From: Cornus controversa
Taxonomy: Eukaryota; Streptophyta; Magnoliopsida; Cornales; Cornaceae
Assembly: GCA_026545225.1 (NCBI GenBank)
Contig: CM048845.1
Span: 79,412,533-79,476,532 of the forward strand
Direction of reading: 5' to 3'
Length of the DNA: 64,000 nucleotides
Position numbers and translations under genes: made by a program. How positions within the stretch are numbered: the first letter of the stretch is position 1; each line of letters starts with the position of its first letter. Below, one piece after another: positions 32,713-37,130 of this stretch. The notes under the pieces were generated by a model. It was given only the letters and a program-made list of their open reading frames with translations. It had not been told where the DNA came from and ran no database searches.

Positions 32713-33441
32713 AAATATTTGTTACTTGTACTACAAAAGAGTTCAATAATAATAAAGGAAGTGCAGCTACAATGTATTGGTGGATTACAATCCAAAAGCC
32801 TGAGTCATCAAAAGAAAAAACAAACAAAGTTACAGAATATCCTTAAAGATTAGATCCGAGGGGATGACACCACAGGAGGACACTTTTTTCGAAATGATAT
32901 CCATAAGATCGGCTGCCTTCACTTTATTCGCGGCAATACGGTCCTCCAAAAATGATAAGTGCTGGCGAGTAGTATCTGCTTCAGCTTCATCCTTTGCAAG
33001 ATCTGAAGTTAAGAGAGCATGCTGGTCATTCAGGACTTGTATCTCATGACTATGAACTGTATCCTGTAGACGAGAATCCAGCCAAGGAAGTGATAAGCCA
33101 ACAGCTTGCCAGTCACTAATACGTCTTCGGAGACTCGGGACTGTCGCAGGATTAATACTAGACAATGGCTGATCATCAAGGGAGATAAGAAAGTTAGCCA
33201 CAACATCCAAAAAGAAACGTTGATACAAAGGATCTTGAAAAGCAAAATTAGCAAAAGTCTCAGGATAATGACGATAGATCCTATTAAGCATCCCCACATT
33301 ACGAAAGCTGCAAGAAAAGGAACGCCATTCAACGGGGTCATCAGGCTTTAAATTCTGAGGATTTAGAAATACTTCGAGGTCTGAACGCAAACCCTCGCTA
33401 AAAACAGAATCAGAATCCATAGCGGAAGTTTGAGGATCATA

Positions 33442-33533
33442 CTCTACAAAACAGGAGGGAGATTGTCAGAAAAATTGGATGAAAATATATATATATATAT
33501 ATGGAGAAAATTACATAAAAATATAGCAAATAC
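33442..33533 (-). other. Predicted intron 2 of the antisense PMD gene
   Basis: On the minus strand it begins GGCCAG|GTATTTGC and ends CTGTTTTGTAGAG|TATG. Of the two adjacent AGs only the second restores the downstream frame. It is TA-rich inside. Confidence 0.65.
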
Positions 33534-34430
33534 CTGGCCCGGGGGAAGGCTTATCAGTAGTATCAACATTAGGCATATAAGCCGCGGGAAGAGGGCAGGA
33601 TAAGGCAGGTGGTTGACTAGTTTCTCCCGCGGAAGGAATATCATCACCTTCAAAAATTTGGAGATCGTCACCCGGACGCCAAAGATTTCTTTGGATAAAA
33701 GAGCAGTATTTTTACTCACTGCAGCCAGCTCGCCTGCAACATCTGAAACATCACCCTCGGTCGCGGGCAAATTCTCAGCCCCAAGTTTTGACATCATAAA
33801 ATCTACTAATGGATCTTGGCTGGAGACAGGCTCTGTCCTGTCTACAGGTTCGCTATCTTGCGAAGAAAAAAGTAAGTGACCGGCATCATGTCTAATGCGA
33901 GCCAAGGGGTCATCATCCGCGGGTGCAGAGGGGGAAGGAACTGATAAAATAGGGGTAGACTGTGATTGTGGGACAGTGGGCTCAGGTAAGGCAGTTGGTT
34001 TATGAAGGGATAACAAGACTGAAATAGGCAGTTGGTCATCTTCATCCACAGTCATCATGGTTGTATGTTTTGAGGGTGAAAGAGGGGAAGAGCCCACAGA
34101 AGGTTGAATGAGATCACCAGAAGCCGTATGCTGACCCTCTGCGGGAGGAGGGAGAGCGGAGTCACCTTCATCAAATACAGTATGTTGACCCTCCGCGGGG
34201 AGGTTTTGGCCCAAGTTATCCTCCGCGGGGAGGTTTATGATAGGGCGAACTGAGTGATCTTCCACTGGGGGATCAGTGTGAGATGCAAACCCCTCCATAG
34301 AGCTTTCTGTGTCCATGGCTTGGTCAAAAGCCAAAGTAAGATTTCCCGATTCTGTTGGTAAAAATCGTGGGGGATCGCTTCTAGAAATAGAAGTTTCCTT
34401 GTACGTAACCGGTTTCCGCGGGCGAAGAGC

Positions 34431-34515
34431 CTACATTGGATAAAAATGTGGAAGATGTTAGGTTATACGCCATAAACAGTAAAAGGGATGGATTTACACA
34501 ATAAGAGAATTGTAC
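34431..34515 (-). other. Predicted intron 1 of the antisense PMD gene
   Basis: On the minus strand it begins GGATG|GTACAATTC and ends TTATCCAATGTAG|GCTC. Removing it joins codon 58 of the frame that starts at 34689 to the open frame reaching 33534, in phase 0. Confidence 0.65.
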
Positions 34516-36365
34516 CATCCGAACTTTCTTTTTGGCAGGTTCAGAGTCAACGATCGTAGTTGGCTCGTGTTCAGCAACAGAAGAAGCTTCGACATCCAAG
34601 GGTAAAGCGCCGCGGGTCAAGCGCTTGCCGCGGGGAGCCTTCTTAAAAAATGACTTCTGTACAAACAAGTCGTGTGGACCTGGGGACATTTCAAAGTAAG
34701 ATCATCCTTATAAATTAAGGCTGTTTCGGGAACAGAAGGGGGGCTCTCTGTAAAATCTTTAAGGATAGTATGCATGTGCTCTAAGTACCGCAAGTAACTG
34801 GCCGAACAATGACCCCTCCTGTGCATAGAAGGAATCTCTACATATGAGGAAAATCGCCAATTCAGTAATTCACGTTTTTTTTGGTAAAAAAGCATCGAAT
34901 CTTTGAAAGTTTCTTCCCATACGAAATTCATGGAAGGGATATTTTGGTCATAACTGAGTTGACGGGCTGCCCGCATGGGATAATAGCCAGTTCGTTTGAG
35001 GCGTGTCTCGTTCACCGCGGGGAGGGCGGCCCCAGCGACTATAGAGCAAAATATCATCTGAGACATAGTAGGCTTATCCTCTTCAATAATACAAGTCTCC
35101 TCCGGATAAAAGGGTGGGAACTGAATACCATCGTACTGGATAGTATAAGGCCGAAACTCAAAGAACTCCTCACAATCCAGTGAGTCTCCAATATCTCTAA
35201 CCCAACCAATGTTATGCCACCGCATGGCTTGACCATTGTCTAAGAGAACACCATCAACGTCAAACAGTTCAAACTCACAAGGCTTATTGGCATAACGAGG
35301 AAAACGCTCGAAAAGAAAGAGCATAAGGAAGAGAGATGAAACATGGCTACTGATTTCGTATCGACCTTTGGAATGAGGGTAGTCCAAAACGATGTCATCT
35401 AAACGGTTGTACAGTGAACCCAAGAACATAGGGGCCAGAGGAAGTGTATCACCCTTGGCCAAAACAGCTGCGAGAAGAAAGGTGTCCCTGTCAGGACCAT
35501 CCTGAGGACGACCCTCAAAGATAAACCTGTCCAACTAGTAAACAAGGAAGGCTGCCAGATCATAGCCTTTACCAAACTCCGGACCGTCTACGTACTGTCG
35601 AACACGCTGACTCTCGCGAAGGTCTTTGGTTCTTTTTTCATAATCTCTGAAGAAGTAACGGAACCAAGAAGTATAAGTGAGCTTGGGGGATTTAATCTTG
35701 GGACGACTCTTCAACTTCTTCGAACCTTTAAAAATAGTATCTAAACGCATAGCCTCATCGGCAAAAATATTCAGAGAATCACGAAGGGATAGAACTTCGG
35801 GTGAGGCTATTGGAGCAGTAACTTCTCCAGAACATAAAATGGGAAGTCTAAAAAGCACCGCCACGTCTTCTAAGGTAGGGGTAAATTCACCCCAAGAAGT
35901 TACAAAAGTATGGTGTACTGAACTCCACCGTGAAATGACAGAGGTGAGGCCTTCTGCGTCCCTCTTAATAGAAAGTTCGGAAAAAAGCTTAACAGATTGA
36001 AGGACTTTGGCCTTTTGAAGAATCTCACAGTACTCAGGAACTCCAAGAATGTAACGTGACCATTCGGTCCATTCTGCAGTAGCACCCATATGTGATTCAT
36101 ATTCGGTAAAACTGAAAGGATAGTCTCCCCGCTCTAATCGGAGACGAGAGATGGACTCGGGAATGAGAGCAAAACTATCCATGTTATCATCTATACTGAG
36201 TACCACGAGATCATCAGATACTTCCATATCAGGAACAAACTCTTCCATGGAACTCCAGAAGTGATCATGCTTCTCTTCAAAAAAGGGTGCCTTACGCCAT
36301 TCATCAAGAGGAGGAACTTGAGGAATTGAACCACTTGGTAATGACAGTTGCTTCTTTTTTGTCAT

Positions 36366-37130
36366 GGCAGAATACTGGGAAATTGGTGACTAAGTAAAAG
36401 AAGGGAAGAAAGAAAACAAACAAAGGAGTGAAGATTTAGTATGAAACACAAGTGGGATACTGTATGTGAAAGACTATATAAAGATTGGGACGCGGAAGCC
36501 GAAGCGACACGAGCGGTTACAAAGGAACCGAGGGGACGCCAATGATAGTCGCAAAAGGTATCTCACCCGCGTAGGGAACATGAACTCCATTACAGATGAC
36601 CGGAACAAGAGAGGACTGTGTAAATAAAGGGGAAGCATCACAAAGAAGAAATAGAGACTCTGAGGCATTTCGTCGAATAAGAAGGAAGCATAAAAAACAA
36701 ACCACAGAACAAGTCATACTGAGAGTAGCAGAAAACACTATTTTATCTAAAGACCGAAGGATCATCAACACGAAAAGAGGTGATCAAATGACGATAGGTT
36801 GACAAGAACAAAGGAGCCATTATGATCACAAGGGAAGAAGGAAGATAAAGCTGGTTACAAATGGTATTCTCCCCGCGTGGGGATTGCGAACAAGGAAAGG
36901 AATAATTAAAACTCTGAAAACATTTGGAAATGAATGTCTTTATGGTTATGAGGAAAGAAGAAAAAGAGAAAGAAAAAAGCAGAGGGTTCACAAGGGGCCA
37001 TCCTTCCCGCGAAGGGATTACAAGCTATGAAACAAGTGCTTTCAAGGAGAAGAGGCCCTGGTGGTACAAAAGAAGGATAATACAAAGGAGAATGTTGTAA
37101 ACACTACTTCAAAAAAAGAAGCATTGTTTA
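36366..37130. other. Spacer between the antisense gene and the polypurine tract
   Basis: Non-coding. It holds the promoter side of the antisense gene and three more CCCGCGNRGGG palindromes, near 36566, 36875 and 37007, the same motif as the LTR array. Confidence 0.6.
36473..36480 (-). promoter_or_regulatory. TATA box of the antisense gene
   Basis: On the minus strand this reads TATATAGT, about 110 nt before the ATG at 36365, a normal plant spacing for a TATA box with a short leader. It suggests the antisense gene has its own promoter rather than using the LTR. Confidence 0.5.

Follow-up and report, generated by a model that had tools for sequence, protein, structure and literature searches.

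A probable intron-bearing antisense plant mobile domain gene in a Tat-group retrotransposon family of Cornus controversa

How can a long terminal repeat (LTR) retrotransposon carry a gene with introns, when passage through an RNA intermediate is expected to strip genes of them? This question is raised by a 64,000-nucleotide stretch of Cornus controversa DNA (GenBank assembly GCA_026545225.1, contig CM048845.1, positions 79,412,533 to 79,476,532 of the forward strand), here called the window, which holds an element whose strand opposite to gag-pol appears to encode a plant mobile domain (PMD) protein in three exons. An initial annotation of the window had proposed such a gene, with two GT..AG introns and a promoter of its own, and had suggested that the introns persist because the genomic RNA of the element is the opposite strand. 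Having compared the copies within the same genome, we consider it very likely that this Tat-group family carries an intron-bearing antisense accessory gene whose introns survive by virtue of their strand. On the evidence of the aligned copies the family has a definite antisense gene structure, with selection on its codons, conserved splice sites and a conserved upstream island.

The gene lies on the minus strand between the end of the integrase open reading frame (ORF; 32712) and the start of the 3' LTR (37143), where the annotation had placed it (Table 1). The PMD that it had named is also present: PF10536 is recognised in two minus-strand pieces of the window, at 35538-36365 (E 8.4e-11, 42.1 bits) and 34684-35534 (E 2.7e-9, 37.1 bits), against a curated cut-off of 34.9 bits. 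All six open exon-1 proteins scanned exceed this cut-off, and in the open exon 1 of locus L034 the domain extends over positions 125-480 (E 2.7e-27, 96.3 bits). The basic stretch at the end of exon 1 may be a nuclear signal. No convincing Pfam match was found for exon 3 in eight members at E values up to 10 (best 0.014), and an NCBIfam scan of one exon 1 gave no match. The predicted product, of about 1,100 residues, would thus begin with the PMD, continue through a variable linker and end in a C-terminal part without a known domain. In the roughly 500 nt that follow exon 3, none of six simple polyadenylation motifs occurs, a result that is uninformative in plants.

The gene structure emerges from the comparison of copies. 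We searched the genome (771.7 Mb, 61 contigs), scoring 40 of 99 candidates and obtaining at least 50 match rows, and aligned the window with 27 loci of the same genome (20 with flanks, 7 partial). Exon 1 has a length of class 0 modulo 3 in 13 of 18 complete rows, exon 2 of class 1 in 20 of 25, over 13 distinct lengths, and exon 3 of class 2 in 24 of 27. The introns instead drift in length, from 82 to 87 nt (intron 1) and from 77 to 97 nt (intron 2), and their lengths are spread over all three classes. Random insertions and deletions across introns and exons alike, the outcome that the annotation had named as speaking against it, were therefore not seen. A full set of open exons, running from ATG to stop, is present in 8 of the 18 complete rows, of which five belong to one young group and three to another. 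Intron 2 has GT..AG ends in 28 of 28 rows and intron 1 in 22 of 25, the failures (L024, L028 and L049) all having broken exons. Between its six clusters intron 1 has a median identity of 0.46, with its ends still kept in most. The introns are short and T-rich, with a median GC content of 0.31 against 0.43-0.51 in the exons.

Upstream of the ATG, the copies share a conserved island. A TATA box had been annotated about 110 nt before the ATG; the TATATA motif at 36480-36475, about 115 nt before it, is shared by 11 aligned sequences, as is the block just behind. Among four divergent sequences, 60-70% of columns are invariant from about -167 to -79, compared with 26% overall and 20% just downstream, and the share is raised as well in the 50 nt directly upstream of the ATG (53-57%). 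The observed maximum of invariant columns was reached by none of 2000 column shuffles. In the same four sequences, conservation upstream of the gene is highest at the dyad CGGTTCCTTTGTAACCG, some 50 nt ahead of the TATA box, which is a possible factor-binding site. The island is internal, its TATA box lying about 600 nt inside the 3' LTR boundary, and supports a promoter situated inside the element and outside its LTR. From this island the antisense gene would be transcribed, and its transcript spliced.

The antisense codons of all three exons bear the mark of selection, measured here as the ratio of nonsynonymous to synonymous substitution (dN/dS). The median is 0.061 in exon 1 (range 0.04-0.20; 52 pairs with dS above 0.15 from 13 copies), 0.262 in exon 2 (0.18-0.57; 148 pairs, 20 copies) and 0.116 in exon 3 (0.06-0.49; 203 pairs, 24 rows). 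The annotation had called for a comparison of copies with regard to conserved splice sites and an excess of synonymous changes, and both were found. A second test, on 15 chosen representatives of 30 loci and pairs with dS above 0.1, gave 0.147 for the integrase, 0.100 for part of exon 1, 0.252 for the first part of exon 2 and 0.117 for exon 3. The other frames of exon 1 gave 1.38-2.02, with the exception of the sense frame that shares its third positions with the antisense frame (0.18). Because open frames on the sense strand opposite exon 1 do not exceed 108 codons, we read this value as a mirror effect.

These results bear on the idea that the antisense RNA, and not a protein, is the sole functional product. 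Such a role is discussed in PMC7264820, and that a transcript of the gene would be complementary to the 3' portion of the genomic RNA follows from geometry only; the arrangement of convergent genes and the conserved upstream island would suit it well. A role of the RNA alone would, however, need neither the codon-level selection seen in all three exons, nor a reading frame kept across the variable lengths of exon 2, nor a kept PMD, and we consider it unlikely. An RNA role and a protein role may exist together.

Alternatively, the exons could be separate small genes, or be joined by frameshifting, with the supposed introns as unspliced spacers. Intron lengths do include multiples of three, and splicing is here a prediction from sequence comparison. 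Against this, intron lengths fall in all three classes, the stretches are T-rich, their GT and AG are kept, and the exon frames fit only when exactly these stretches are removed, so that we regard separate or frameshifted genes as quite improbable. Intron 1 lies precisely where it had been annotated. For intron 2 the annotated donor (33533) stood, whereas the acceptor at 33442, which would give 92 nt, was rejected: it came from following the wrong frame out of exon 2. In the frame that the family conserves, the acceptor falls at 33444 (90 nt, phase 1), and the pair ending there is the best-scoring local splice pair (10.3 versus 5.5 for the acceptor at 33442). A third intron near a frame change at about 34690 was also considered, and was dropped because other copies with an open exon 1 have an uninterrupted frame over that stretch.

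Intron 1 is present in all 25 rows, and intron 2 in all 28, in which its site can be read. Processed, intronless copies, sought as proof of splicing, were found with neither junction pattern: patterns bridging either intron, allowing up to three mismatches, matched no place in the genome, while the unspliced pattern of intron 2, serving as a positive control, was found at 28 sites. This absence of intron loss fits what would be expected if introns opposite to the genomic RNA escape removal before reverse transcription. The genomic RNA, being the complementary strand, would not present these splice signals in readable form, and so the introns would survive retrotransposition unchanged. The spliced antisense mRNA, to judge from retroelement biology, would lack the terminal and primer-site sequences needed for copying. 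The reason that the annotation had given for the persistence of the introns is thus in agreement with the aligned rows and with the missing spliced junctions, and it is from this agreement that we infer it.

A further search of the genome for PMD sequences (117 of 1004 candidates scored, at least 143 match rows) led to five more PMD loci, chosen from different score classes. In all five, the PMD lies on the strand opposite to pol. Directly after the PMD frame, L051, L053 and L055 each have a candidate intron of 84-94 nt that is beyond chance, with 0, 1 and 2 of 500 shuffles as good. Separately, G000 C8:6640444-6921794 holds a cluster of strong PMD matches, most of which, among the matches listed, have open frames of about 600-1260 codons; judged from its tandem setting only, it is probably a tandem host gene family.

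The strong matches with open frames clustered on C8 could suggest that the window family recently captured a host PMD gene together with its introns. This is countered by exon 1 of copies at dS above 1, which shows few replacements, by the same antisense layout in other element families, by one gene of the C8 cluster (L056) that has the PMD and the C-terminal part in a single 564-codon frame, and by a published phylogeny reported to contain element-only PMD-A clades (PMC5418596). We find a recent capture highly improbable.

Several observations weigh against an intron-bearing antisense gene. The window copy is broken: its pieces had been annotated as joining exactly in frame, and they do not, there being an in-frame TAG at 35537-35535 and frame changes near 34644 and 33680. 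Near 33680 the length of the window copy differs from 27 of 27 other rows, and near 34644 from 23 of 24, the row of equal length (L035) having a separate gap nearby. The window copy cannot make the full protein, and the gene claim therefore holds for the family and not for this copy. Likewise, the annotated self-contained transcription unit moved with the element is supported for the family by the comparison of copies and the upstream island, but not for the window copy as a source of full protein. The rows are related and partly mosaic, so that the counts given above are not independent events. The intron-1 pair by itself scores weakly and not beyond chance (48 of 300 shuffles as high), and since the sequence of the window alone leaves it within chance, intron 1 is established by the comparison of copies. 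Constraint on exon 2 is looser, with dN/dS up to 0.57. Among the five further PMD loci, the in-phase intron candidate of L054 is not beyond chance (44 of 500 shuffles) and L052 has none that is (103 of 500). The junction search for intron 1 had no positive control of its own, transcription and splicing of the antisense RNA are predictions from sequence comparison, and any role of the PMD is proposed from what is known of its family. That the locus is a captured gene in decay, with functionless relic frames and GT..AG pairs that arose by chance, as the stop, the two frame changes and the chance-level intron-1 pair might suggest, is already contradicted by the complete rows in which every exon is open (8 of 18), the low dN/dS and the splice ends kept in diverged introns, and we give it a negligible chance.

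The alignment also records exchange between copies. Over window positions 35900-31330, L019-L021 resemble the window at 96-100% in exon 1 and, after a fall to 69-80% in exon 3, at 91-97% in the integrase, and the reverse is seen in L004-L011 (78-86% in exon 1, 96-98% in exon 3); by this pattern, subfamilies have recombined inside the antisense gene. L012, L013 and L014 (G000 C1:64506228-64544997) lie on one strand about 17 kb apart and are alike in their mosaic pattern, which identifies them, by arrangement and similarity, as a local duplication carrying the element.

Together these data support a model where a Tat-group Ty3/gypsy family would carry an accessory PMD gene opposite to gag-pol, with three exons and two short T-rich introns, driven by its own TATA promoter near the 3' LTR. 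The host PMD proteins MAIN and MAIL1 are reported to work with PP7L in the silencing of transposable elements (PMC8616336), and a counter-silencing function has been proposed for the PMDs of elements (PMC8616336, PMC5418596). The protein of the present family may similarly have a nuclear role, affecting either the PMD-based silencing pathway of the host (MAIN/MAIL1-PP7L) or transcription of the element, a published hypothesis which we extend to it from family knowledge and only tentatively. As a speculation of about the same standing, placing an accessory gene on the opposite strand could be a general strategy by which the Tat group takes a counter-silencing gene with introns and a separate promoter through an RNA life cycle. 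Such introns might then be kept for use, in expression, in export or in making the PMD part alone through intron retention, and might mark the antisense mRNA off from the overlapping genomic RNA.

The placement of the element in the Tat group of Ty3/gypsy (Ogre/Retand type) follows from its domain order. In the Pfam scan RVT_3 comes after RT_RNaseH and before Integrase_H2C2/rve, and an additional RNase H between RNase H and integrase is described as the mark of angiosperm Tat elements, Ogre or Retand (PMC6317226). The PMD-bearing extra ORF, an Ogre trait, is present. Transposase_28 (PF04195), a Retand trait, gave no Pfam match in four window pieces, eight exon-3 members and six exon-1 members, exon 2 being scanned in the window only. 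A further Ogre trait is a primer binding site complementary to tRNA-Arg; a pattern search for a tRNA end matching the putative site of the window element gave no match. The two LTRs, aligned over 1153 positions, differ by 11 mismatches, 10 of them transitions, and no gaps. The gag-protease and reverse transcriptase (RT) frames are in the same frame, with about 90 nt containing stops between them (28941-29032, plus strand), a layout that resembles the Ogre sense intron.

Table 1. Positions of the antisense gene, its upstream island and the surrounding element, in window coordinates
Feature	Position	Strand	Details
Conserved upstream island	36445..36535	-	CGGTTCCTTTGTAACCG dyad and TATATA; 11 sequences aligned; invariant-column test
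Exon 1	34516..36365	-	ATG at 36365; PMD; KKKVRM-like basic stretch at end
Intron 1	34431..34515	-	85 nt in window, phase 0, GT..AG
Exon 2	33534..34430	-	variable linker; frame change near 33680 in window copy
Intron 2	33444..33533	-	90 nt in window, phase 1; acceptor TAG 33446-33444
Exon 3	32830..33443	-	C-terminal part; stop 32832-32830; open in window copy
5' LTR	25663..26810	+	ends TGTAAATAAG...CTTATTTACA; target duplication ACAAC 25658-25662 just before
Putative primer binding site	26812..26830	+	TTGGCGACTCCAC...; adjoins 5' LTR
gag-protease open frame	26797..28941	+	PF03732 E 4.3e-9, PF13975 E 2.3e-8
RT, RNase H and additional RNase H (RVT_3) open frame	29032..31179	+	PF00078 E 8.7e-31, PF17917, PF13456 E 6.5e-20
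Integrase	31041..32712	+	two overlapping open frames, 31041-31853 and 31822-32712; PF17921 E 3.4e-15, PF00665 E 2.9e-12
3' LTR	37143..38290	+	then target duplication ACAAC 38291-38295

Outside the element, two minus-strand frames at 40673-41821 resemble, by eye, gag fragments of another retroelement, with no Pfam match. Exon-like frames at 19980-21682 (plus strand) resemble by eye a plasma-membrane H+-ATPase gene, one of them with a weak HAD hydrolase match (E 7e-4), and a plus-strand frame at 44795-45208, probably an exon of a host gene, contains the beginning of a Nudix hydrolase domain (PF18290, E 4.2e-8).

An element gene that keeps its introns over dS above 1 by facing the other way would mean that the rule of intron loss depends on strand. 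Surveys of plant elements for long antisense ORFs would split such genes and miss the full protein. Since the element protein belongs to the same domain family as MAIN and MAIL1, intron-aware gene models would make the counter-silencing idea directly testable.

That idea, like antisense accessory ORFs and element-borne PMDs, is already in print. Antisense ORFs between pol and the 3' LTR are reviewed in PMC7264820, which reports an upstream promoter of its own and a nuclear product for maize Grande and urges attention to antisense and spliced transcripts. A 2025 survey of Retand elements reports antisense TRP28 ORFs in 97% of clusters (PMC11963269); a term search of its main text did not find the word 'intron'. 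Gene23 of maize Grande, rice RIRE2 and Silene Retand are described as lying, like the window gene, antisense between pol and the 3' LTR (PMC7264820, PMC11963269), whereas the Retand-type antisense ORFs carry Transposase_28 where the window gene has a PMD and two introns. A PMD is reported in 57% of Ogre elements, whose extra ORFs share this domain with the window gene (PMC6317226), and in Gypsy elements of many angiosperms (PMC9289625); PMD-A1/A2 are reported as encoded only by Gypsy elements (PMC5418596). In the literature searched we found no description of an intron-bearing antisense PMD gene in plant elements.

Beyond these, the protease-RT intron of Ogre is, as here, a spliceosomal intron kept by an LTR retrotransposon, but it lies in the sense RNA and is described as kept since only part of the transcripts is spliced (PMC6317226), whereas the introns of the window family are antisense. 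The HBZ-type genes of human T-cell leukaemia viruses (HTLV) and their relatives are spliced antisense genes of a retroelement (PMC8622228), as proposed for the window gene, whose splicing we infer for the family. The HTLV antisense promoters are reported to lie in the 3' LTR (PMC10186651), whereas the TATA island of the window element, its putative antisense promoter, is internal, and the HBZ proteins are unrelated to the window PMD protein. An antisense homing endonuclease gene in a mobile group I intron is likewise described as an antisense mobile-element gene with a spliceosomal intron (PMC9548176). It differs in that no RNA copy of the whole element is made and the element is not a retroelement, and its protein is also unrelated to the window PMD protein. 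Together, the HTLV-type and group I intron cases provide precedents for the principle of a spliced antisense gene carried by a mobile element.

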